From assembly GCA_012728895.1 (NCBI GenBank), contig JAAYEG010000015.1, forward strand, positions 1-45,663: a stretch of 45,663 bases of DNA, read 5' to 3'. Both the position numbers and the translations under genes were made by a program. The DNA comes from Methanospirillum sp. GTDB lineage: Archaea; Halobacteriota; Methanomicrobia; Methanomicrobiales; Methanospirillaceae. The notes under the pieces were generated by a model. That model was not told the DNA's origin. It saw only the letters and a list, made by a program, of their open reading frames with translations, and did no database searches. Of the stretch, positions 2,521-23,734 are shown in pieces; position 1 is the first letter of the stretch; every line of letters starts with the position of its first letter.

Positions 2521-3429
2521 ATGACAAGGGAGGAGCTGGAACGGGTCGACCTCGATCTTTCCGGGGGCCCGGCCGCACTCGTGCTGCACCGCGAGGATCT
2601 CTCCGCGGTCTTCCCCGGGATGCTCCGGTACCTGGTTCTGCTCGAGACCGGGGACCGGCGGATCGTCCTCTTCTCGACCAACACCTACGAGTACACGCCC
2701 CTCCTCCCGATCGACGCCGAACAGGCCGGCCGCCGGGCGGTCGCCACCTGGGCGGAGGCGCTCCGGGCCGACCCGGAGCGGTGCGCCCGGGCGGCGAGAG
2801 AGGCAGCCCCTCCCTGCCCAACGGCGGAGGGCGGCGTCCTGGTCCTGCAGGGCAGCCCCCGTCCCGACGGCTCGTGCGCCCTCCTCGCCGAATGGGCTGC
2901 CGGTGCCGCCGCGTTCGCCGGCCTGCCGGCCGAGGTCGTGTTCGTCCACGACCTGGCGGTCGCCCCCTGCATCGGGTGCTACCAGTGTTACAATACCGGC
3001 CTCTGCACGTTCGACGACGACATGTCCCGCCTCGGGCCGGCCATCAGGGACGCGGCGCTCCTGGTCGTCTGCTCTCCCGTCTACACCAACACGGTGCCCG
3101 CCGGTCTCAAGGCGGTCATCGACCGGGCCCAGGCGCTCCACGCGGAGACATCCCTCCTCGCGCGCCCGGCGCCAGACCGGGGCCGGGCCGGGGTGCTGCT
3201 CGCCACGGCCGGGCGGCCGGGCGGGGCCAACTTCACCTGCGTCCGGAGCGTGGTCCGGGCCTTCATGGCCAACCTCGGGATCCGGTACGCAGGGGAGGTG
3301 CTGGTCGACGACCTGGACGCCCGGCGCGACCCGAGAGAGGTGCTCGGCCTCGAGGAGCGGGTCAGGTCGACGGTCCTCTCGGCCCTCGCCCACCCCGCCG
3401 GCGGGCGGCGGCGACTCCCCGGTCACTGA
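2521..3429 (+). CDS. NADPH-dependent FMN reductase-like flavodoxin-fold protein with extra N-terminal domain
   Basis: The 302-residue product has a C-terminal flavodoxin-fold domain from about residue 104. The FMN phosphate loop GSPRPDGS lies at 111-118 and the motif SPVYTNTVPAGLK follows later. A four-cysteine cluster C150-x2-C153-x2-C156-x5-C162 resembles the cysteine-bearing loop of archaeal iron-sulfur flavoproteins. The first 100 residues, containing FSTNTYEYTPLLPID, are an additional domain I do not recognise. The likely role is a cytosolic FMN-dependent redox protein. It is transcribed alone after a 152-nt gap with TATA-like sequences (CTTTATCC about 2373; GATAGTTTGATG about 2427). Whether the cysteines hold an Fe-S cluster is unknown. 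Confidence 0.82.
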   Translation: MTREELERVDLDLSGGPAALVLHREDLSAVFPGMLRYLVLLETGDRRIVLFSTNTYEYTPLLPIDAEQAGRRAVATWAEALRADPERCARAAREAAPPCPTAEGGVLVLQGSPRPDGSCALLAEWAAGAAAFAGLPAEVVFVHDLAVAPCIGCYQCYNTGLCTFDDDMSRLGPAIRDAALLVVCSPVYTNTVPAGLKAVIDRAQALHAETSLLARPAPDRGRAGVLLATAGRPGGANFTCVRSVVRAFMANLGIRYAGEVLVDDLDARRDPREVLGLEERVRSTVLSALAHPAGGRRRLPGH

Positions 3430-3505
3430 ACGCCCCCCCGGGATTCAAACCGATGGTATTTACCTGTCCCGGCGTATCATCTCTCAACGATACAGGGGTT
3501 CACCC

Positions 3506-5014
3506 ATGTCGAACGATGCCGCCGGATTTCGCCTGATCAGCACCTCAGTCCTGGCCTACCGTATCGTGGTCCCGTCCTCGGCCATCCTCTTCGTCGGGGA
3601 TATCCTCAAGCTCGTGGACCACGACAAGGACTTCACCTTCTTCGCCAAGGTCACGGACATCACCCACGACACCGCGCAGGGGGAGCCGGCCGCCGGGCCG
3701 ACCCTCGCCGTCAACCTCCACCCGCTCGGGCTCATCGACCACGACGGGCGGTTCCGTCCCCCGATGACGGCCCCCACCAACTTCGCCGAGGTCTCCCGCC
3801 CCGACGACGCGGACCTCGAGTTCCTGAAGCAGTCGATGGGCGATCTCGAGGTCGGCCAGATGCGGGCGGGGCTCGGGATCCTCGAGGGCGTGACCGTCTC
3901 GCTCCCGTCCGAGACCCTCTCCTCGCACATGGGGGTCTTCGCGACCACCGGGATGGGCAAGTCGAACTTCATGAAGGTGCTCTGCGCCTCTGCGATGCGC
4001 CTGAGGCGGTTCGGGGTCCTGATGGTCGACCCCCACGGCGAGTACGTGACCGGGTACCGGCTCCGCAACCAGCGGATCAAGGGGCTCATCGAGTACACGG
4101 GGGCGCGGGACGGGCTCTCGGTCTACTCGACCCGCCCCCCCGACGAGCGGAAGCGCTACGGCCTCAAGGAGCTCCGGCTCGAGCACGACGACTTCCGGAT
4201 GGGGGACCTGGGCTTCCTGTACGAGCTCTCGCTCCCCCTGATCGAGGTCGTCGAGTCGCTCGACAGCCACGCCGGCTCGGACGTGATCGACTTCTTCATC
4301 AACGAGGGGGTCGACTCGCTCCCGTCGCCCCTCAAGACGACGAGCGGGATCGGCCGGCACCCGGAGATCACAGACACGCTCAGGACCTACGCCCTCGGGC
4401 CGCTCCACATGACCCAGCGCCGGGTCGAGACGGTCGTGGAGGAGAACCGGGTCTTCTTCCACCGGTTCGGGTCCTCGATCCCGTCCATCCTCGAGGACCT
4501 GGCCCAGAACAAGGTCGTGCTGATCGACATCCCCGGGGTGAGCGAGCGGGGCGAGCTCTTCGCCCTCTCCACGATGACCCGGGCGATCCTGAACGCGCAC
4601 AAGCTGCGGACCCTCTCCGACGAGGAGACCTCCCACCAGCAGGTCCTGATCGCGATCGAGGAGGCCCAGCGCGTCCTGGCCGAGGCGAACCAGTCGACCC
4701 AGGTCTTCCGAGAGTGCGTGATGGAGGGGCGCAAGTTCGGGGTCGGGCTCTGCCTGGTCACCCAGCAGCCCAAGAACATCGACCCCCGGATCCTCGCCCA
4801 GCTCAACACCTACGTCGTGATGGGCCTCGCCGACCAGCAGGACCGGTCGATCGTCGCCGGGAACGCCAAGCAGAACCTGGCGAGCATGAACAACGAGATC
4901 CAGACTCTCCCACGGGGTGACGCCGTCATCAGCATCATGGGCACGCCGTTCCCGGTCTCGACCCGGATCCACCTCTTCGAGGACTACCTGGACCGGCTCG
5001 ACGCGGCGTCCTGA
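3506..5014 (+). CDS. HerA-family DNA-translocating ATPase (DUF87)
   Basis: The 502-residue protein has an N-terminal HAS-barrel-like beta domain (about residues 1-110), then a RecA/FtsK-type ATPase. Walker A is GMGKSN at about 149-154 and Walker B is LIAIEEAQRV near 382-391. A late sensor-like segment contains LVTQQPKNIDPRIL. HerA-family hexamers translocate on DNA and usually work with the nuclease NurA in end resection, but no nurA, mre11 or rad50 gene lies nearby. The open frame extends far upstream, but the ATG at 3506 follows a TATA-like GGTATTTACC at 3457-3466 and fits the start of the HAS barrel. The gene is monocistronic. Confidence 0.9.
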   Translation: MSNDAAGFRLISTSVLAYRIVVPSSAILFVGDILKLVDHDKDFTFFAKVTDITHDTAQGEPAAGPTLAVNLHPLGLIDHDGRFRPPMTAPTNFAEVSRPDDADLEFLKQSMGDLEVGQMRAGLGILEGVTVSLPSETLSSHMGVFATTGMGKSNFMKVLCASAMRLRRFGVLMVDPHGEYVTGYRLRNQRIKGLIEYTGARDGLSVYSTRPPDERKRYGLKELRLEHDDFRMGDLGFLYELSLPLIEVVESLDSHAGSDVIDFFINEGVDSLPSPLKTTSGIGRHPEITDTLRTYALGPLHMTQRRVETVVEENRVFFHRFGSSIPSILEDLAQNKVVLIDIPGVSERGELFALSTMTRAILNAHKLRTLSDEETSHQQVLIAIEEAQRVLAEANQSTQVFRECVMEGRKFGVGLCLVTQQPKNIDPRILAQLNTYVVMGLADQQDRSIVAGNAKQNLASMNNEIQTLPRGDAVISIMGTPFPVSTRIHLFEDYLDRLDAAS

Positions 5015-14329: not shown

Positions 14330-15457
14330 TCAGCCCAGCTCGTCCCACCGGGTCCGCCGCTGGAACAGGACGACACCGACCGCGATCAGGGCGATCACTG
14401 CGATCACGACGACGTACGGCAGGATCCCGCCACCTTCGGGGTTCGCGGACACGTTCCCGGACGGGCTGTTCCCGTCCGCATAGAGAGACCGGAGCTGGAC
14501 CGAGTCGTTGTAGGCCTCGAGCGCCTTGGCCGCGGACTCGTTCGCACGGATCCGCGCCTGGTTGAAGTTGTCGTCGTCCAGGCTGTCGCGGGCGCTGATG
14601 AGGGACTGCTGGGCGCTCTCCCGCTTGACCGTGATGGCCGCGACGCGGGGGTCGTTGGAGAGGTCCGGGTTCGCCTTGAAGAAGGTCAGCATCTCGTCGA
14701 CGTTCCGGATCTGGGCAGTGGCGCGGTCGACCTCGGCCTGAGCGCTCGTCCGGTCGAGGCTCTCTTCCGCCTGGTCGATCAGGACGGTCACCCGGCCGAC
14801 CGCGTTGCTCTGCTCGGAGACTGTCCCGGAACTCGCGGTCTTCAGCAGCTGGTCGGCCTCGGCGTACATCCTCTCTGCCTCGGTCGTGTTCGCGCCCTGC
14901 ACCGCCCGCGAGTCGATCGCGGCGCGCAGCCCGTCGAGGGAGGTCTGCGCCGCGGCCAGGTCCCGGGAGACCGCGTCGGGGTCGACCACCTCGCGCGTGA
15001 TGGCCTGCTCGCCGTTCTCGCGGACCTTGTTCTCCTGGTCGAGCCACTGGAACCTGAGAACGGTGATGTTCTTGCTCTGGTTGACCTGTGGGACCGTGCC
15101 CTCGAGCGTGACGTGGAGCTTGACCGACGACTCTTTCGGGTATTCGAGCTCGAATCCGGTGATCTTGAAGAACTTCCCGAAGGCGTCGGGCTTGGGGTTC
15201 TCGTTGCCGCTGATCACGACGGACCAACGCCACTTCGGCTCGTCGAGCTCGGAGAAGAGGGCGAAGGTGTCGTCGCTCGGGAAGGTGGTTCCCGCCGTCA
15301 CCGGGAAGCCGACGATTGCATTCACCGTGACAGGAATCCCGGCCTGGAGGGCCCCGTCCGGGGTCACCTCGGCCCTCTCCACCGTGTAGGCGTTCGCGCC
15401 GGCCGCGAGGCCGCAGGCGAGTAAAAGAACAAATGCGGTTCGAATGATCGCGTTCAT
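14330..15457 (-). CDS. secreted/anchored coiled-coil protein downstream of cetZ
   Basis: The 375-residue product has an N-terminal signal peptide (hydrophobic stretch AFVLLLACGLAAGANA, likely cleaved after residue 23). An approximately 130-residue beta-rich extracytoplasmic domain (AEVTPDGALQAGIPVTVNAIV) is followed by an about 180-residue heptad-like helical region rich in Ala, Gln and Glu. The Gly-rich linker NPEGGG leads to one C-terminal transmembrane helix (about 343-365) with a short basic tail. The fold is unknown. GGAGTGAT before the ATG is a good ribosome-binding site, and the start lies 4 nt after the cetZ stop. Tight coupling suggests the protein links the envelope to the CetZ filament. 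Confidence 0.78.
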   Translation of the reverse strand: MNAIIRTAFVLLLACGLAAGANAYTVERAEVTPDGALQAGIPVTVNAIVGFPVTAGTTFPSDDTFALFSELDEPKWRWSVVISGNENPKPDAFGKFFKITGFELEYPKESSVKLHVTLEGTVPQVNQSKNITVLRFQWLDQENKVRENGEQAITREVVDPDAVSRDLAAAQTSLDGLRAAIDSRAVQGANTTEAERMYAEADQLLKTASSGTVSEQSNAVGRVTVLIDQAEESLDRTSAQAEVDRATAQIRNVDEMLTFFKANPDLSNDPRVAAITVKRESAQQSLISARDSLDDDNFNQARIRANESAAKALEAYNDSVQLRSLYADGNSPSGNVSANPEGGGILPYVVVIAVIALIAVGVVLFQRRTRWDELG

Positions 15458-15461
15458 GGTA

Positions 15462-16643
15462 TCACTCCGTCTCCTCTCCAAACAGCGGTTCGATGCCGTC
15501 CTTGAACATCGTCTTTCCGTCGAGCTTCTCCTTCGCGAGCTCCTCTCTCGTCTCTTTCGCCATCTCGAGAAGGTCGCGGACGCGCGGGGCGTCCGCCACC
15601 GAGGCGAGGACCACGATCGCCGCGACGTAGTTCGAGCGGATCGGGTAGTCGCCCGACCGGATCTCGTCCGCGTCGATCTGCTCCTCGATCCAGGCGCGGG
15701 CCTTCTCGACCCCCTTCCGGTCCATCTCGCCCGGGGGGCCGACGAGGAGGATCAGCGCCCGGCCGGCCGACCGGTAGTTGCAGGGGAGCGTCAGACGGCC
15801 GAGCACGGCCGAACGGACGAGCGAGAGGATCTTGGACGAGCGGTCGTCCCCGAGGAGCTGCTGTTCGGCCCCGTCCTCCTTCTTTCTGAGGTTCCGGAGG
15901 ATGCCGGACAGCGACCCCTGCCTCTGTTTCAGCCTCTGGCTGACCGCCTCCGTTTTGGCAAACCCGACCGTGGTGATCCCGCCGCCCCGGAGCGTGTTGA
16001 TGATCTCGGACGAGTCGACGACCATCTCGCCGATCCCCTGCTGTCCCACCTCACCGGCCCGGAAGAGGACGCCGAACCTTCGGGCGATCTCGTCGTTGAT
16101 CCGGTCGTAGGCGGTCTTGATCGACTCCCCCTCCTTCCGCCAGGCCGCATTGTCGAAGATGAACGTGTTGTCGGCGACGTTCACGAGGGTCGTGAGCGAG
16201 CGCGCCGCGTTGTACGAGTAGAGACGTCCCTCGTCGGGCGAGGGGATGATCCCGATGGCGTAGACGGGCTCCTCGTACAGGCTCTTGAGGTACTGGGCGA
16301 GCACGGGCGTCCCGCCCGAGCCCGTCCCTCCTCCGAGCCCCGCCACGATCACGAACGCATCGATGTCGTGCGTCCCGATCGCCTCGATCGCCGTCACGAT
16401 CGAATCCACCTCGTCGCGCGTGATCTTCGCCCCGAGGGCGTTCTCCGTCCCGACGCCATGGCCCTTGACCACGGTCTGCCCTATCAGCACCCGGTCCTTC
16501 ATCGGGATCTGCTTGAGGCCGAGGAGGTCCGTCCTTGCCGTGTTCACCGCGATGGCACGGAAAAGGTGCGTCTTGTCCTGTTCGACGAACATGTCGACGA
16601 CCTTCCCACCGGCCTGCCCGAAACCGATAAAGAAGATCCTCAT
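15462..16643 (-). CDS. cetZ: CetZ-type tubulin/FtsZ-family GTPase
   Basis: The 393-residue protein has the tubulin-superfamily GTPase motifs: the N-terminal loop GFGQAGGK (7-14), NTARTDL, and the phosphate-binding T4 signature GGGTGSG at 104-110 in AGLGGGTGSGGTPV. The latter, with the GxGQAGGK loop, is the CetZ variety rather than FtsZ1/FtsZ2. In haloarchaea CetZ proteins form filaments at the membrane and control cell shape and motility rather than division. The methanogen homologue is uncharacterised. It is the first gene of a minus-strand operon, followed 4 nt later by a secreted coiled-coil protein. Confidence 0.92.
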   Translation of the reverse strand: MRIFFIGFGQAGGKVVDMFVEQDKTHLFRAIAVNTARTDLLGLKQIPMKDRVLIGQTVVKGHGVGTENALGAKITRDEVDSIVTAIEAIGTHDIDAFVIVAGLGGGTGSGGTPVLAQYLKSLYEEPVYAIGIIPSPDEGRLYSYNAARSLTTLVNVADNTFIFDNAAWRKEGESIKTAYDRINDEIARRFGVLFRAGEVGQQGIGEMVVDSSEIINTLRGGGITTVGFAKTEAVSQRLKQRQGSLSGILRNLRKKEDGAEQQLLGDDRSSKILSLVRSAVLGRLTLPCNYRSAGRALILLVGPPGEMDRKGVEKARAWIEEQIDADEIRSGDYPIRSNYVAAIVVLASVADAPRVRDLLEMAKETREELAKEKLDGKTMFKDGIEPLFGEETE

Positions 16644-16759: not shown

Positions 16760-17989
16760 ATGAAGTGCTGCATCGTCGGAGGAGGCCTCACGGGGCTCGT
16801 AGCGGCCCTTTCCCTCTCCACCGACCACGAGGTCGTTCTCATGGAACGCCGGCCCGTGCTCGGGGGATGCCTCTCCTCGATCGACCGCGGCGACTACACC
16901 ATCGAGGCCTTCTATCACCACTGTTTCCAGGGTGACCGCCACCTCCTCGTGCTCCTCGACCGGCTCGGGCTGCGCGGCGAGCTCGAGTGGCTGACCGGGA
17001 CCACCGGGTACCACGTCGAAGGCCGTTCGTTCCCGCTCTCGACCCCGACCGAGATCCTCTCGTACCCCCACATGAGCCTGCTCGACAAGGCCCGGCTCGG
17101 GTGGCTGATGCTCCGCGCCGGCCGGATCGACCGTTCCGGGCTCGACGACGTGACCGCGAAGTCGTTCATCCAGGACAACCTGGGGACGTCGGTCTACACC
17201 TCGTTCTTCGAGCCCCTGCTCCGGTCGAAGTTCGGGCCGATGCAGGACCGCGTCTCGGCCGCGTGGCTCCTCTCGCGGATCGCGATCCGCTCGAACCGGT
17301 CGCCCGGCGGGGAGCGGCTCGGGTACCTCCGGCACGGCTTCGCGTCCCTGGTCGACCGGCTCCGCCGCGCCGCCGAGGCGGAGGGCTGCTCGGTCCTGAC
17401 CGGGACCCCGGTCGGGGCGATCCGGCGCGACGGGGCGGGGTGGACCGTGCGTGACGAACGGTTCGACGCGGTCGTCTCGACCGTTCCCCCCCAGCTCCTC
17501 GCCTCGATGACCGGACTCCCGCTGGGCGAGGTCCCGTACCAGGGAGCGGCATGCATGACCCTCGCCATCGACCGCGACGTCACCGGCGGCATCTACTGGC
17601 TCAACATGAAGGACCGGGCCCCGTACGGGGCCGTTGTCGCTCACACCAACCTGGTGCCGGTCGAGCGCTACGGCGAGCACCTGGTCTACCTCGCCTCGTA
17701 CTTCGCCGGAGACCTCCCCGAGGGTCACGGCGACCGGATGCTCTCCGACTTCTGCCAGCGGTTCGGCGTGGCGAAAGAAGAGGTCCGGTGGCACCACCTC
17801 GAGGTCGACCCGTTCGCGGGCCCGGTCTACGAGACCGGGTACCACCGGCGGATCCCGGGATACGCCCACGACGGTCTGTACATGGCGGGCATGTTCTCGG
17901 CGCCGAACTACCCGGAGCGGTCGATGGAGGGCTCGATCGTCGCGGGGGAGGAGGTCACCGCCGCGGTGCGAGGCGCCTCGCATGGATGA
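16760..17989 (+). CDS. FAD-dependent amine-oxidase/protoporphyrinogen-oxidase-like oxidoreductase
   Basis: The 409-residue flavoprotein begins with a Rossmann dinucleotide motif GGGLTGL at about 7-13. This is followed by an acidic residue after the second strand (VVLMERR) and the GGCLSS signature of amine-oxidase-type flavoenzymes. VSTVPPQLL and a C-terminal YMAGMF-N-PERSMEGSIVAGEE segment complete the FAD fold. Its place at the head of a glycosyltransferase/flippase operon argues for a sugar, polyprenol or glycolipid substrate (UDP-galactopyranose mutase and phytoene desaturase share this fold) rather than porphyrin. That is inference. The stop overlaps the next ATG by 8 nt. Confidence 0.82.
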   Translation: MKCCIVGGGLTGLVAALSLSTDHEVVLMERRPVLGGCLSSIDRGDYTIEAFYHHCFQGDRHLLVLLDRLGLRGELEWLTGTTGYHVEGRSFPLSTPTEILSYPHMSLLDKARLGWLMLRAGRIDRSGLDDVTAKSFIQDNLGTSVYTSFFEPLLRSKFGPMQDRVSAAWLLSRIAIRSNRSPGGERLGYLRHGFASLVDRLRRAAEAEGCSVLTGTPVGAIRRDGAGWTVRDERFDAVVSTVPPQLLASMTGLPLGEVPYQGAACMTLAIDRDVTGGIYWLNMKDRAPYGAVVAHTNLVPVERYGEHLVYLASYFAGDLPEGHGDRMLSDFCQRFGVAKEEVRWHHLEVDPFAGPVYETGYHRRIPGYAHDGLYMAGMFSAPNYPERSMEGSIVAGEEVTAAVRGASHG

Positions 17990-18692
17990 GCCCGAGCTGA
18001 CCGCGGTCCTGCCGGTCTTCAACGACCGCGCCGCCCTCGAGCGGGCTGTCCCTGTCTCGATCGAGGTGCTCGAGGCGTGCGCGGACACGTTCGAGCTCGT
18101 CGTGGCAGAGGACGGATCGACCGACGGCTCGGCCGAGTTCGTCGCCGCGTACGCCGAACGCGACCCGCGGGTCCGGCTCCTCCACTCGGACGAGCGGCTA
18201 GGGCGCGGGAGGGCCCTGAACCGCGCGTTCATCGCCTCCGGCGGGCGCGTCGTCTGCTACTACGACGTGGACCTCGCCACCGACATGCGCCACCTGGCGC
18301 CCCTGGTCGACGCGGTTCGGGACGGGGCCGCGATGGCGACCGGCTCGCGCCTGATGCCCGGGTCCGTGATCGTCAGGTCCGGGGGTCGGGAGTTCGCGAG
18401 CCGCGGCTACAACCTCCTCGTCCGGAGCGTGCTCGGTTCCCGGCTTCACGACCACCAGTGCGGTTTCAAGGCGTTCGACCGCGCCCGCCTCCTGTCGATT
18501 CTCGGGCAGGTCCGCGCCACGCACTGGTTCTGGGACACCGAGGTGCTGGTCCGGGGCCAGCGCGCCGGGTACCGGGTCGTCGAGCTGCCGGTCCGGTGGA
18601 CCGAGGGGCCGGGGACCACCGTCAGGCCCAGGGACGTGGTCGAGATGGGAAGCGCGGTCTTCCGGCTCTGGTGGCAGCTCCATGTGGCGTAA
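17982..18692 (+). CDS. GT2-family glycosyltransferase (dolichyl-phosphate sugar synthase-like)
   Basis: The 236-residue GT-A enzyme has AVLPVFNDRAALE at the N-terminus, VVAEDGSTDGS near 37-47, a DxD-like YYDVDLATD around 91-99, and HDHQCGFKAFDR with FWDTEV in the C-terminal half. All are typical of DPM1/AglJ-like synthases that load a sugar on dolichyl phosphate at the cytoplasmic face. No transmembrane segments are fused. It overlaps the FAD oxidoreductase by 8 nt and the flippase-like gene by 11 nt, so the three are coupled. Confidence 0.9.
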   Translation: MDEPELTAVLPVFNDRAALERAVPVSIEVLEACADTFELVVAEDGSTDGSAEFVAAYAERDPRVRLLHSDERLGRGRALNRAFIASGGRVVCYYDVDLATDMRHLAPLVDAVRDGAAMATGSRLMPGSVIVRSGGREFASRGYNLLVRSVLGSRLHDHQCGFKAFDRARLLSILGQVRATHWFWDTEVLVRGQRAGYRVVELPVRWTEGPGTTVRPRDVVEMGSAVFRLWWQLHVA

Positions 18693-19653
18693 GATCTTAA
18701 CGACCGTGCTCCCGCTCACGATCGCCGTCGCGATCATCGCGTACATGCTCGTCCCGATCTGGACGGACCTGGTCGAGGCGCTCCAGACCGCCGTGCCCGC
18801 CCACTTCGTGGTCGCGGTCGCGGTCTGCGTCGTGGCATGGATCCTCCGCGGGTGGCGGTACCGCCTGATCCTGAACGGGCTCGGCGTCCAGCCGACCCTG
18901 GGGTTCGCCACGGCATGCATCTTCGTCTCGCAGACGGTGAACCTGGTGGTCCCTGCCCGGCTCGGGGACCTCGTCCGGGTCTTCATCCTCAAGCACCAAT
19001 TCGAGACGACCTACTCCCAGGGGCTCTCCTCCATCGTGGTCGAGCGGGTCTACGACATCGTCACTGTCGCGCTGCTCGGGCTCGTCTCGATCCCCTTCTT
19101 CCTGGAGTTCCCGCCCGAGTACTACGCCCTGATCGTGGTCCCTCTCGTCGGCGGGGCCCTCTTCGTCGTCCTGCTCCTGGTCGTGGGCAGGATCCGGTCC
19201 CGGAACCGCCTGGTTCTGGCGATCCTCCAGATGCTCGACGAGATCCGGACGGTCTCGCTCTCGCTGCGCGCGATGGTCGTGCTCGGCGGCGTCTCGATCC
19301 TGATCTGGCTCGTGGACATCACGGTCTGCATCTTCGTGGTCCTGATGTTCCAGGCGCCGCTCGACGTCGCGAGCGTCGCCCTCGCGATCGTGATCGGCAA
19401 CCTGGTCAAGGCCGTCCCGATCACGCCGGGCGGCCTGGGGACCTACGAGTTCACGGTCGCGGCCATCCTCGAGCGCGGCGGGATCCCCCACGTGGCCGCA
19501 ACCCTGATCGCGTTCATCGACCACCTGATCAAGAACATGGTCACCCTCGTCGGCGGGGTGGTCTCGATCTTCGTCTTCGGGGACTGGATGGTCGGGGTGA
19601 TCAGGAAGGTCTACGAGAGCAGGGTGCTGAAGGGGGGATCGCTTGGCGATTGA
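18682..19653 (+). CDS. flippase-like lysylphosphatidylglycerol-synthase-TM (UPF0104) membrane protein
   Basis: The 323-residue integral membrane protein has about eight helices and the family motifs RGWRYRLIL, PARLGDLVRVF, SSIVVERVYDIVTV and TPGGLGTYEFTV. Members of this family (LPG_synthase_TM) are found fused or adjacent to GT2 enzymes in archaea, as in AglD-like proteins. They are thought to move or use lipid-linked sugars, though direct activity is not proven. It overlaps the GT2 gene by 11 nt and the first DUF2298 gene by 11 nt. Confidence 0.88.
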   Translation: MWRKILTTVLPLTIAVAIIAYMLVPIWTDLVEALQTAVPAHFVVAVAVCVVAWILRGWRYRLILNGLGVQPTLGFATACIFVSQTVNLVVPARLGDLVRVFILKHQFETTYSQGLSSIVVERVYDIVTVALLGLVSIPFFLEFPPEYYALIVVPLVGGALFVVLLLVVGRIRSRNRLVLAILQMLDEIRTVSLSLRAMVVLGGVSILIWLVDITVCIFVVLMFQAPLDVASVALAIVIGNLVKAVPITPGGLGTYEFTVAAILERGGIPHVAATLIAFIDHLIKNMVTLVGGVVSIFVFGDWMVGVIRKVYESRVLKGGSLGD

Positions 19654-21676
19654 GGCGCATATCCTGGCCGTGGTGGCCTGGCTCGCGGTGCTGAAACTCG
19701 TCCAGCTGGCGCTCTGGCCCTCCCTCGCACCCGCCTTCGGCCGGTACGCCTACCCGGTCTCTTTCTCGGGCTCGGTCCTGCTCCTCGCGCTCATCGCGTG
19801 GTACCTCGGGCTTGCCGGGCTCCCCGTCCAGCTGGCGCTCGCTCCGTTCCTGGTCCTGCTCGGCTGGCACGCGTACCGGGGGGCCTACACCCGCTCGTCG
19901 CTCGGGGGTCTCTGGCGCTGGGACGCGGTCTTCCTCTTCCTTTTCGTCTTCATGCTCGAATGCCGGTTCATCAGCCCGTCGGCCTGGGGCGCCGAGAAGT
20001 TCATGGATCACGGCTTCATCGCCTCGATCATGCGCTCGCCCGTCGTGCCGCCGCTCGACCCGTGGTACGCCGGCGGCCGGCTGAACGTCTACTATTACTA
20101 CGGCTCCTGGATCATGGGCGTGCTGGGGCTGTCGAGCGGGGTGCCGTCCAACCTCGTCTTCACCCTGGGTCTCCCGACCGTGCTCGCGCTTGCCGGGGTC
20201 AACTGCTACCTGGTCGGGCACCTCCTCCTCGACCGCTACCGCTGGTTGCCGGTCCTCCCGCTGATCCTGCCCAACCCGGCATCCGTCCTGTACGCCCTGC
20301 AGGGGACGCCCCTCTCGACGGTGGCCTGGAACAGCACACGGGTCATCCAGGACACGATCAACGAGTACCCCCTCTTCTCGTTCACCTGGGGCGACCTCCA
20401 TGCCCACGTGATCGGGATCTTCAACCAGGCCTTTCTGATCGCGCTCCTCGTGCTCGCCCTCGCCTGCTGGCCCCGTCTCGCGGACCGCGCACGCGTAATC
20501 CTGATCGGGTTCGTCGCGCTCTCGCTCGGCGCGATGCCGGGGATCAACTCCTGGGACGTCCTGATCTACGGTCCGGTCACCGTCCTCGTCGCGTCAGTCC
20601 TCTGGCTCCGCCACCGAAACGATCCCGGTGGCGGACGGATAACGCCGCTCCACTTCCTGGTGGCCGGCCCGGTCCTCGCGATCGCGCTTTACGCGCCGTT
20701 CTACCTCTCGCTCGCGTCGTCGGGCATCAAGGGGATCGGCTGGGTCGGAGCCCCGTCGGACCCGGCCCAGTTCCTGCTCGTCCACGGGTTCTTCCTGGCG
20801 GTCGCCTACCTCGCGTGCATCCCCGACCTCCGCCGCAGGCCGTACCTGGTCGGCGTCGCCCTGCCGTTCCTGCTCGGCGGCTACGCCGCGGCGACGATCG
20901 CCGCCGTCCCGCTCGCCTGCCTCGTCACCCGCATCGCGACCCGCGGGGGCGGGCGGCGGACCGAGGACCTCCTTCTGGCGCTCGGGCTGGGGATCGCGCT
21001 CTTCTGCGAGCTAGTCTACCTCAGGGACAACATGGGCGACCAGTACTTCCGCATGAACACGGTCTTCAAGTTCTACATCGCGGCCTGGCTCATGATGGGG
21101 ATCGGGACCTTCGTCATGGCCGGCCGGTTCCTGGACCGCCCGCCGGTCACGGAGCGGGTGGAGCGGGTGCCGTCGCTGGCGCGGCGCACTCTCTCCGTGG
21201 CCGTCCTCGCCCTGCTGCTCTCGGCCCCGTTCCTCGCTGCCGGCGCCTTCACCCACGAGACCTACACGCTCGACGGCATGGCGTTCCTGGACCGGGACCA
21301 CCCCGGGGACGCGAAGGCGATCCGGTACCTGCGGGAGATGGAGGGTCAGCGCGTCGTCATCGAGGCGCAGGGCGACAACTACTCGTACGCGGCCCGTGTC
21401 TCGTCGTTCACGGGGATGCAGGCCGTGATCGGCTGGACGTTCCACGAGTTCATGTGGCGGAACGACTACGCCCCGATCCAGGAGCGGATGACCGACGTCC
21501 GCGCGGCCTACGAGGACCCGGGCCGGACCCTCGCGGTGATGGAGAAGTACGGCGCTGACCTCCTCTACGTCGGGGATCTCGAGCGGGAGAAGTACGCCGT
21601 TCACCTCCCGGAGAGCGGACTCGAGCGGATCTTCGACGAAGGGGGCGTCCAGATCTACCGGCGCGGGGGGACGTAG
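19643..21676 (+). CDS. DUF2298/YYY-domain giant membrane protein, copy 1
   Basis: The 677-residue protein has about 12-14 membrane helices and the DUF2298 (Chlor_Arch_YYY) signatures: EKFMDHGFIASIMRS, DPWYAGGRLNVYYYYGSW and PLFSFTWGDLHAH, then GAMPGINSWD and QYFRMNTVFKFYIAAW. A C-terminal extracytoplasmic domain contains DRDHPGDAKAIRYL and GDNYSYAARVSSFTG. The architecture resembles GT-C glycosyltransferases or oligosaccharyltransferases, but no activity is known. The start is TTG at 19643 after AAGGGGGGAT, overlapping the flippase-like gene by 11 nt. A paralogue follows 3 nt later. Confidence 0.85.
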   Translation: MAIEAHILAVVAWLAVLKLVQLALWPSLAPAFGRYAYPVSFSGSVLLLALIAWYLGLAGLPVQLALAPFLVLLGWHAYRGAYTRSSLGGLWRWDAVFLFLFVFMLECRFISPSAWGAEKFMDHGFIASIMRSPVVPPLDPWYAGGRLNVYYYYGSWIMGVLGLSSGVPSNLVFTLGLPTVLALAGVNCYLVGHLLLDRYRWLPVLPLILPNPASVLYALQGTPLSTVAWNSTRVIQDTINEYPLFSFTWGDLHAHVIGIFNQAFLIALLVLALACWPRLADRARVILIGFVALSLGAMPGINSWDVLIYGPVTVLVASVLWLRHRNDPGGGRITPLHFLVAGPVLAIALYAPFYLSLASSGIKGIGWVGAPSDPAQFLLVHGFFLAVAYLACIPDLRRRPYLVGVALPFLLGGYAAATIAAVPLACLVTRIATRGGGRRTEDLLLALGLGIALFCELVYLRDNMGDQYFRMNTVFKFYIAAWLMMGIGTFVMAGRFLDRPPVTERVERVPSLARRTLSVAVLALLLSAPFLAAGAFTHETYTLDGMAFLDRDHPGDAKAIRYLREMEGQRVVIEAQGDNYSYAARVSSFTGMQAVIGWTFHEFMWRNDYAPIQERMTDVRAAYEDPGRTLAVMEKYGADLLYVGDLEREKYAVHLPESGLERIFDEGGVQIYRRGGT

Positions 21677-21679
21677 AAG

Positions 21680-23734
21680 GTGATCGGCCTCCCCGAACAG
21701 GCGTTCTACGTGCTCAGCTGGCTGGCGGTCCTGAAACTGCTCCAGGTCGCGGTCTGGCCCGCGCTCCGCCCGCTCTTCGGCCGGCTCGCCTACCCGGCCG
21801 CGTTCACGGTCTCGCTGTTGATCCTGCTGCCGCTCTCGTTCTACCTCGGGCTGGCCCGCCTGCCGACCTGGCTCGCCGTCGCCCCGCTCCTCCTGGTCCT
21901 CGGCGCGGGGATCGCGCGGGGGCAATACCTCCGGGCTGCCTGGGAAGACGTCCTCCGGTGGGACCTCGTCTTCCTGATCTTCTTCCTGTTCGTGCTGGAA
22001 CTGCGGTACTTCAACCCGTACGTCTCCCACTACTCGGAGCAGTTCATGGACCTCGCCTGGATCGCCTCTATCATGAACAGCCCTGTCGTCACCCCCGCCG
22101 ACCCCTGGTTCGCGGGCGGGACGCTCGACATCTACTACTACCTGGGCCACTGGCTGATGGCCCAGCTCGGCCTGCTCGCGGGGGTGCCTGCCCGCGTCGT
22201 CTTCAACCTGGTCCTGCCGACGGTCTTCGGGCTCTCGGCCGTGAACTGTTACCTGATCGGGCACCTCGTCCTCGAACGCCACCGCTGGCTCCCGGTGGCG
22301 CTCCTGGTCCTCGTCAACCCCGAGGCCGTCTCCCGGCTGGTCTCGGGCGACACCCTGGTCGCGGCCCTCGACCACTCGCGGCACGCGATCGAGTACAACC
22401 TGACCGAGTACCCCTTCTTCTCGGCGATCCTGGGGGATCCCCATGCCCTCGTGATGGGCATGGCGAACCAGGTCTTCCTGCTCGCGCTGCTCGCCTTCGC
22501 CTGGACCCGCTGGCCGGACCTCTCGAACCGCCAGCGGTGGGCCGCGATCGGCCTGGGCGCCCTCTCCCTCGGAACGATGCCGGGGATCAACTCCTGGGAC
22601 GTCCTGGTCTACGGACCGCTCGTCGTCGCCTTCGGGCTCCTGCTCTGGTGGCGTGCCCGGGCAGCGGGGGACCCGTCGGCGAACCGGGGGCTGCACTTCG
22701 GGCTCCTGGTCCCGGTCCTGGCCGTCGTCCTCTACCTCCCCTACCTGTTCGAGGTCAGGCCCGGGTCGATCCACGGGCTCCTCCCGGTCTTCGCGCCCTC
22801 GGCGCCGGCGGAGTTCCTTTTGACCCACGGGTTCTTCTTCGCCGTGATCGCGGTTGCGATCGCGCCCCTCGTGTACCGCCAGCCGCTCCTCCTCCTTGTC
22901 GCCGTCCCGTTCCTCGGTCTCGGGTACCACTCTGCGGCGATCGCTGCGGTCCTGGTCGCCTACATGGTTCTGCGGGCGCGCCGGACCGGGCGGTTCGAGG
23001 ACATGGTCCTGGTGACCGGGCTTATGATCGTCCTTGCCGTCGAACTGGTCTACGTCCGGGAGATCTTCGACAACGAGTACTTCCGCACGAACACGATGCA
23101 CAAACTCTACTATATCGCCTGGCTCCACCTGGGTCTCGGCTGCACGGGTCTCGCGGGCCGGTGGCTCTCCTCCCGCCCGGACCTCTTCGCGGTCAGGCCG
23201 GTCATCCAGAAGATAGCCGCGGTCGTCGTTATCGCCGCCCTTCTCGCGTTCCCCGTGGTCTTCCAGCCAGACGTCGGGCGGGACCTGCTGGGGATCACGT
23301 TCTCGGGAGGGGACCGGACCCTCGACGGGCTCGCCTACCTGGACCACGACCACCCGGGGGACGCCGGGGCCATCCGGTTCCTCGAGACCCTGCCCGGGAA
23401 CGACTGCATCGTCGAGGCCGTCGGCGGCGACTACAGCTACGGAGCGCCGATCTCGTCGTTCACCGGACGCCAGACGGTCATCGGCAAGCCGTCCCACGAG
23501 CTCCAGTGGCGGACGAACGAGGACGGATGGTGGTGGACGCGGATCCCGGACGTGGCGCGGATCTACGAGGAGCCGGAACAGACCGTCCCGCTCATGCGGA
23601 AGTACGGGTGCGGGCTCCTGTACGTCGGGGATCTCGAGCGGGAGAAGTACGCGGTGAACCTGCCGGGGACCGGCCTCGAGCGGATCTTCGACAGAGAGGG
23701 CGTCCAGATCTACCGGATCGCGGGCGCCGCATGA
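21680..23734 (+). CDS. DUF2298/YYY-domain giant membrane protein, copy 2
   Basis: The 684-residue protein is collinear with its upstream neighbour over its whole length: EQFMDLAWIASIMNS, DPWFAGGTLDIYYYLGHW, PFFSAILGDPHAL, GTMPGINSWDVL, EYFRTNTMHKLYYIAW, and the C-terminal LDHDHPGDAGAIRFL and GGDYSYGAPISSFTG. Differences are concentrated in the loops; for instance the DLHAH of copy 1 is DPHAL here. The two look like a tandem duplication that has specialised, perhaps as a heterodimer or as successive enzymes. The start is GTG at 21680. This is the last gene of the operon, 160 nt before the L7Ae cluster. Confidence 0.85.
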   Translation: MIGLPEQAFYVLSWLAVLKLLQVAVWPALRPLFGRLAYPAAFTVSLLILLPLSFYLGLARLPTWLAVAPLLLVLGAGIARGQYLRAAWEDVLRWDLVFLIFFLFVLELRYFNPYVSHYSEQFMDLAWIASIMNSPVVTPADPWFAGGTLDIYYYLGHWLMAQLGLLAGVPARVVFNLVLPTVFGLSAVNCYLIGHLVLERHRWLPVALLVLVNPEAVSRLVSGDTLVAALDHSRHAIEYNLTEYPFFSAILGDPHALVMGMANQVFLLALLAFAWTRWPDLSNRQRWAAIGLGALSLGTMPGINSWDVLVYGPLVVAFGLLLWWRARAAGDPSANRGLHFGLLVPVLAVVLYLPYLFEVRPGSIHGLLPVFAPSAPAEFLLTHGFFFAVIAVAIAPLVYRQPLLLLVAVPFLGLGYHSAAIAAVLVAYMVLRARRTGRFEDMVLVTGLMIVLAVELVYVREIFDNEYFRTNTMHKLYYIAWLHLGLGCTGLAGRWLSSRPDLFAVRPVIQKIAAVVVIAALLAFPVVFQPDVGRDLLGITFSGGDRTLDGLAYLDHDHPGDAGAIRFLETLPGNDCIVEAVGGDYSYGAPISSFTGRQTVIGKPSHELQWRTNEDGWWWTRIPDVARIYEEPEQTVPLMRKYGCGLLYVGDLEREKYAVNLPGTGLERIFDREGVQIYRIAGAA

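Follow-up and report, generated by a model that had tools for sequence, protein, structure and literature searches.

What is the role of an operon in Methanospirillum that combines a flavoenzyme, a glycosyltransferase and three membrane proteins, two of which belong to the family DUF2298? The operon lies on contig JAAYEG010000015.1 (45,663 nucleotides, assembly GCA_012728895.1; this whole stretch is referred to as the window), one contig of a 2.28-Mb draft genome that is 95% complete, and the closest named kin of the window are uncultured Methanomicrobiales. Open reading frame analysis gives five co-directional genes that span positions 16760-23734 on the forward strand. Their products very probably link a sugar to a lipid of the membrane, bring it to the outside of the cell and transfer it to a molecule of the cell surface. 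The genes and their relevant features are the following.

16760..17989, + strand: flavin adenine dinucleotide (FAD)-dependent oxidoreductase of the PRK07233 family (NF005560, PF01593) by profile matches, 409 residues, with the N-terminal dinucleotide-binding motif GGGLTGL
17982..18692, + strand: GT2 glycosyltransferase, 236 residues, ATG start at 17982; predicted catalytic domain of an AglD-type dolichol phosphate (Dol-P)-hexose synthase
18264..18272, + strand: DXD motif of the GT2 (D95-V-D97), predicted equivalent of AglD D110-T111-D112 by alignment and a spacing test (PMC2877612)
18534..18536, + strand: predicted catalytic base of the GT2, D185 in FWDTE, equivalent of AglD D201 by alignment and spacing (PMC2877612)
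18682..19653, + strand: LPG_synthase_TM / TIGR00374 (PF03706) membrane protein, 323 residues; candidate flippase or synthase anchor and putative membrane half of a split AglD
19643..21676, + strand: DUF2298a (Chlor_Arch_YYY), 677 residues, TTG start, predicted GT-C fold; the ancestral operon copy
19994..20098, + strand: first exterior loop of DUF2298a, predicted outside by the positive-inside rule, with E118, D139 and YYY invariant in 45 family members
19994-19996, 20057-20059 and 20090-20098, + strand: within this loop, E118, D139 of the DPW motif and YYY 150-152, respectively
21680..23734, + strand: DUF2298b (Chlor_Arch_YYY), 684 residues, GTG start; an old paralogue that is an operon member in this lineage alone and keeps the family-invariant residues

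The genes are tightly packed. Neighbouring genes overlap by 8, 11 and 11 nucleotides and the two DUF2298 genes are separated by 3 nucleotides, in agreement with a preliminary description of the locus, which had reported five genes with overlaps of 8-11 nucleotides and one 3-nucleotide gap. All family assignments are well above the cut-offs: the FAD enzyme matches NF005560 of NCBIfam with 440.9 bits (curated cut-off 252), the GT2 protein, which has no transmembrane segment by hydropathy, matches PF00535 of Pfam with 79 bits (cut-off 23), and the membrane protein matches PF03706 of Pfam with 171 bits (cut-off 33). DUF2298a and DUF2298b match TIGR03662 with 546.6 and 441.2 bits (cut-off 300.25) and PF10060 with 371.5 and 302.6 bits (cut-off 27.8). 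Literature naming DUF2298, PF10060 or TIGR03662 reports no function, and the earlier statement that the family has no assigned reaction thus stands.

The block formed by the FAD, GT2, PF03706 and DUF2298 genes is found in the same order and on the same strand in all 21 representatives across the Methanomicrobiales, and the named loci of the order that are long enough to display it have the same arrangement. Because of this recurrence, the four-gene arrangement is not due to chance. The block adjoins a divergent CetZ gene pair in all 21 representatives and is followed downstream by L7Ae in 20 of them. Of 120 genomes of the order, 118 contain DUF2298 and 116 a member of the FAD family above its cut-off. 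The fifth gene has a history of its own. In the tree, DUF2298a joins the copies of loci L067 and L043, and DUF2298b joins second copies located elsewhere in other genomes (L059, L060, L063 and L066; Shimodaira-Hasegawa-like approximate likelihood-ratio support, SH-aLRT, 98); DUF2298b stands inside the operon only in the close kin of the window (L067 and L104). It is an old paralogue that this lineage has placed in the operon, and the tree rejects a recent tandem duplication. The five-gene operon of the preliminary description is therefore correct for the window and its close kin, whereas elsewhere the second DUF2298 gene is not a member. Given that DUF2298b keeps the invariant residues, it may add a second sugar or act on a second acceptor.

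Outside the order, presence was defined as a score above the family cut-off for the FAD enzyme and of at least 100 bits for DUF2298, and the co-occurrences were counted by hand from the result tables. Among 116 other archaeal genomes of the phylum, 50 have both families, three the FAD family only, one DUF2298 only and 62 neither. The same pattern is seen in Chloroflexota (151 genomes), where both are present in 99 genomes and absent from 45, with single occurrences in six (FAD only) and one (DUF2298 only). Presence is mosaic inside the archaeal families f7, f9, f14 and f20. The module-type GT2 was defined by a score of 250 bits or more, other GT2s reaching no more than about 200 bits. It is found in all 50 archaeal genomes with both families and also in about 16 genomes without DUF2298, so that the DUF2298 step is followed more closely by the flavoenzyme than by the loading of the sugar. 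Of the control genomes, Haloferax volcanii has both DUF2298 and the flavoenzyme; no strong member of the FAD family is present in Methanocaldococcus jannaschii and Sulfolobus acidocaldarius. Adjacency of the FAD and DUF2298 genes recurs in Methanomicrobiales, in families f9, f14 and f22 and in Chloroflexota; the two lie apart in the sampled haloarchaea and in most Archaeoglobaceae-like genomes (f8). Overall, DUF2298 is found in nearly all Methanomicrobiales, in many members of the haloarchaea, Methanosarcina and Archaeoglobales and in two thirds of the sampled Chloroflexota.

A comparison of gene neighbourhoods in archaea and Chloroflexi, suggested in the preliminary description, revealed a recurring DUF2298 neighbourhood in both. 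A common gene order in Chloroflexota is FAD, PF03706, PMT_2 GT-C and DUF2298 (L153, L154 and L157), and another is FAD, PMT_2 and DUF2298 (L158 and L160). A PMT_2 gene also adjoins the FAD gene in archaeal families f9, f14 and f22 (L164-L166), and in one chloroflexotal locus a PMT domain is fused to DUF2298 (L144, 66-4343, 1425 residues). The recurring partner is therefore another GT-C transferase.

Several of these loci have further features. Giant DUF2298 proteins of about 2500 residues with two DUF2298 domains occur in Chloroflexota (L185, 7097-14593); a different amine-oxidase-type flavoenzyme of 559 residues adjoins DUF2298 at the same locus (2902-4581). One PMT_2 protein beside DUF2298 and FAD genes has a C-terminal NHL beta-propeller (L156, 8951-11812), possibly an acceptor-binding part. 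In two Chloroflexota genomes, the gene of an FtsY-like SRP54-type GTPase is directly beside DUF2298 (L153, 13111-14040; L154, 9806-10717). One genus of the archaeal family f6 has the gene of an FkbM-type methyltransferase, which may methylate the sugar, between the PF03706 and DUF2298 genes (L055, 7585-8541; L065, 6740-7696).

The GT2 and PF03706 proteins look, from their sequences, like a split form of AglD (HVO_0798), the Dol-P-mannose synthase of H. volcanii. AglD loads mannose onto dolichol phosphate at the inner face of the membrane, and AglR and AglS have been assigned to exposure and transfer (PMC3871713). Its absolutely conserved residues are D110, D112, D133, R139, R152, D173 and G177; D201 is the catalytic base and W198 to E203 form a conserved stretch, and D133 is dispensable according to the legend of Figure 6 of that study (PMC2877612). 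We compared this published residue fingerprint by spacing rather than by direct alignment with a named AglD sequence. The GT2 of the window matches D110, D112, R139, R152, D173, G177, W198, D201 and E203 (nine of nine); it is one residue shorter than AglD between D112 and R139 and does not keep D133. The two proteins are encoded by separate, overlapping genes in the window and form a single polypeptide in relatives. Fusions adjoining DUF2298 are found in a Methanosarcinaceae metagenome-assembled genome (MAG; L131), an Archaeoglobales MAG (L140), Methanosarcina sp. KYL-1 (L143) and others, and the fusions of L131 and L143 match all ten AglD positions by spacing. Haloarchaeal fusions of about 605-750 residues (L191-L200) do so in nine of ten cases, the remaining one matching nine positions. 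The Methanomicrobiales version thus shares with AglD the DXD, R139, D173, W198, D201 and E203 pattern, and the fusions with this fingerprint in haloarchaea, Methanosarcinaceae and Archaeoglobales pair the GT2 with a PF03706 membrane region. It differs from AglD in being split into two genes and in being apparently co-transcribed with FAD and DUF2298 genes, which are absent from the published AglD route. Given this likeness, the flippase named in the preliminary description is one of two roles of the PF03706 protein, which may be a flippase or the membrane domain of the synthase; the family match was correct, the flippase function is not established, and part of the pathway has already been described. 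In Methanosarcina (L138, L163 and L201), the open frame of GT2-PF03706 extends over about 587 residues, yet its first ATG, GTG or TTG lies about 90-100 codons in, possibly because of an unusual start codon or a frameshift.

PDB sequence searches with DUF2298, using a single sequence and a 45-member profile, found no relative, and fold comparison was therefore used. The AlphaFold model has a mean predicted local distance difference test score (pLDDT) of 94.2 and a predicted TM-score (pTM) of 0.94. Nine PDB matches have E<=0.001, and every one of them is a GT-C enzyme; they include the C-mannosyltransferase DPY19 (7.3e-08), the arabinosyltransferase AftA (6.5e-07; TM 0.46/0.51) and Archaeoglobus AglB (5.8e-06), as well as human oligosaccharyltransferase (STT3), PglB and AftD. 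These matches bear out the GT-C nature that had been suggested for the family. An alignment of 45 members from archaea, Chloroflexota and one bacterium of the PVC group shows that E118, D139, YYY150-152, P243, H253, W304, K476, G545, G591, G644 and E647 are invariant; the YYYxG motif reads VYYYYGSW and IYYYLGHW in the two copies of the window. On the model helices, Arg/Lys-rich loops alternate with motif-bearing loops, a charge pattern that predicts E118/D139/YYY, H253, R470/N472/K476 and the C-terminal domain to be outside, with the conserved acidic residues E118 and D139 in the first exterior loop. DUF2298 thus resembles DPY19, AftA and AglB/STT3/PglB in overall fold, in a predicted exterior loop with conserved acidic residues and in a predicted exterior soluble C-terminal domain. 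It differs from them in lacking sequence similarity detectable in PDB searches and in its own motifs, DPW...YYYxG, GDxHAH and RMNTVFK.

The AlphaFold model of the FAD enzyme (pLDDT 93.7) is nearest in fold to protoporphyrinogen oxidases, plant phytoene desaturase (TM 0.82-0.83) and monoamine oxidases. It shares the fold and the FAD-binding motif with protoporphyrinogen oxidase, phytoene desaturase and HpnE but belongs to a separate family, NF005560, and scores far below their cut-offs. G7, G9, G12, E29, G35 and G36 are invariant in 25 family members, and many polar residues (His, Tyr, Arg and Asn) are also kept. UDP-galactopyranose mutase (UGM), a flavoenzyme acting on sugars, has weak profile similarity to the FAD enzyme over residues 4-208. 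UGM and GLF models are nonetheless missing among its Pfam and NCBIfam matches up to E=0.01, and UGM is not among its 50 best structural matches, and this identity was rejected.

Taken together, the operon probably serves to glycosylate the cell envelope with a sugar carried on dolichol phosphate, by a pathway made up of a split AglD, an exterior DUF2298 GT-C transferase and an FAD enzyme acting in the same route. The basis for this reading is the operon, its synteny, the co-inheritance, the GT2-PF03706 fusion in relatives, the match to AglD residues and the GT-C fold. From these we infer the direction of transfer, catalysis at the exterior and the dolichol carrier. At the inner face of the membrane, the GT2 would charge dolichol phosphate with a hexose, either mannose or glucose, donated by a nucleotide sugar; the PF03706 protein would be the membrane half of the synthase and perhaps also the flippase. 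Outside, the acidic residues of their first exterior loop would help the DUF2298 transferases to move the hexose from dolichol phosphate to an acceptor at the cell surface, for which a glycoprotein, or the glycan that it carries, is the most likely candidate. The DUF2298 route would also include the FAD enzyme, which would modify either the sugar on its lipid, the carrier dolichol or the acceptor. The chain of activation, flipping and transfer to a glycolipid in the preliminary description is retained in its logic of activation, exposure and transfer; its glycolipid product is not, as protein or glycan acceptors fit as well.

Similar logic is known from the multi-component transmembrane glycosylation systems of Gram-positive bacteria (CsbB-GtcA-YfhO and GtlA-GtcA-GtlB), in which a GT-A synthase likewise works with a flippase or other membrane partner and with a GT-C transferase at the exterior. 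The module encodes a GT-A synthase together with a GT-C transferase and no flippase of the GtrA or Wzx type; here the PF03706 protein (TIGR00374) replaces the latter, DUF2298 replaces YfhO or PMT_2, and a flavoenzyme is the constant companion. By this comparison, the pathway would be partly known, its first half being common with AglD, and new relative to the Gram-positive systems in its membrane partner, its GT-C family and its added flavoenzyme.

Several points weigh against this reading. The sugar, the lipid and the acceptor are not identified by the computation. The Fisher p-values for the co-occurrence of FAD and DUF2298 families (5.6e-28 in archaea, 1.2e-30 in Chloroflexota) ignore phylogeny. 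About 16 archaeal genomes outside the order have the module GT2 without DUF2298. The TM-scores to GT-C enzymes are moderate, reaching 0.46 when scaled to the length of the query and 0.51 when scaled to that of the target, and the comparison was one of overall fold rather than of superposed catalytic residues. PF03706 includes proteins of other function. Finally, AglD is assigned to the synthesis of Dol-P-mannose for N-glycans, and the later steps published for it are those of AglR and AglS, not DUF2298.

One rival reading is that DUF2298 adds a terminal Dol-P-derived hexose to glycans already attached to Asn by AglB, in the role of H. volcanii AglS. We consider such N-glycan finishing possible but less likely than not. 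H. volcanii AglD makes Dol-P-mannose for that very purpose, with AglS as the transferase (PMC3871713), the GT2 and PF03706 pair of the module is AglD-like, and of 100 genomes in the order 97 encode AglB/STT3. However, the published H. volcanii pentasaccharide genes, aglD excepted, lie in one cluster (HVO_1517-1531; PMC3871713), and the haloarchaeal DUF2298 genes lie in loci that do not resemble it, near ribosomal L44e and eIF2-alpha (four of six loci read: L169, L170, L171 and L178); judging from gene location, DUF2298 is therefore unlikely to be AglS. In the draft genome of the window no STT3 was found either, perhaps owing to an assembly gap. We dropped the idea that this makes the pathway AglB-independent, as a gap is probable given the presence of STT3 in 97 of 100 relatives. 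A surface glycolipid pathway, as the preliminary description had proposed, or a polysaccharide pathway, in which DUF2298 has a lipid or a wall polymer of the archaeon as its acceptor, appears rather doubtful. The bacterial three-part systems decorate teichoic acids and polysaccharides (PMC8035078), AftA is among the best fold matches, and no obvious glycoprotein seems to be common to Chloroflexota and Methanomicrobiales. Yet no lipid-biosynthesis gene recurs in the neighbourhoods read, the best fold matches include the protein glycosyltransferases DPY19, AglB and PglB, and nothing favours a glycolipid over a protein or glycan acceptor. Protein O-glycosylation is a possibility for the module; to our knowledge, the pathway of archaeal O-glycosylation has not been identified. 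It is quite unlikely that the FAD enzyme, AglD pair and DUF2298 form a second, AglB-independent protein glycosylation machine common to archaea and Chloroflexota, with DUF2298 as the long-missing archaeal O-glycosyltransferase or a DPY19-like C-glycosyltransferase and the flavoenzyme as a new redox step on the donor or carrier.

Different readings also exist for the flavoenzyme. That the FAD gene is a mere passenger, co-inherited with an otherwise complete GT2/PF03706/DUF2298 route, might be argued from profiles that ignore the relatedness among genomes and from the separation of the two genes in the sampled haloarchaea and most f8 genomes. Their coupling in two domains of life, the mosaic presence within four archaeal families and the adjacency that recurs from Methanomicrobiales to Chloroflexota make this very unlikely. 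The amine-oxidase-type fold proposed in the preliminary description is supported by PF01593 and the AlphaFold model; its suggested action on a sugar or polyprenol has no fixed place in the route, and the enzyme is coupled more closely to DUF2298 than to the GT2. Its substrate could be the lipid-linked sugar or the carrier. Action on the isoprenoid carrier, for example saturation of the alpha-isoprene of dolichol phosphate that would fit the carrier to DUF2298, seems somewhat unlikely to us. The best fold overlap is indeed with an isoprenoid enzyme, plant phytoene desaturase, and H. volcanii without GGR still partly saturates the alpha-position of dolichol phosphate (PMC10821996), so that an unassigned reductase may exist. 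On the other hand, archaea generally use reduced dolichols, and yet M. jannaschii and S. acidocaldarius have no strong member of the family; the enzyme is also found in bacteria, namely Chloroflexota, and the polar residues conserved among its 25 aligned members would equally suit a polar substrate.

The proposed envelope glycosylation pathway, with DUF2298 proteins as GT-C transferases beside a split AglD and a constant flavoenzyme, would bring an uncharacterised family into a defined pathway. It gives clear gene-deletion predictions that can be tested in H. volcanii, for which good glycoproteomics exists.

Across the whole window, Rfam and tRNA scans gave no matches. Divergent from the operon on the reverse strand (14330-16643) are a CetZ gene and, downstream of it, the gene of a protein predicted to be secreted and anchored in the membrane; all Methanomicrobiales genera read keep this divergent pair beside the operon. 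A common regulatory region or a link to cell shape is conceivable. Translation genes neighbour DUF2298 in both haloarchaea (L44e and eIF2-alpha) and Methanomicrobiales, where the gene lies upstream of L7Ae.

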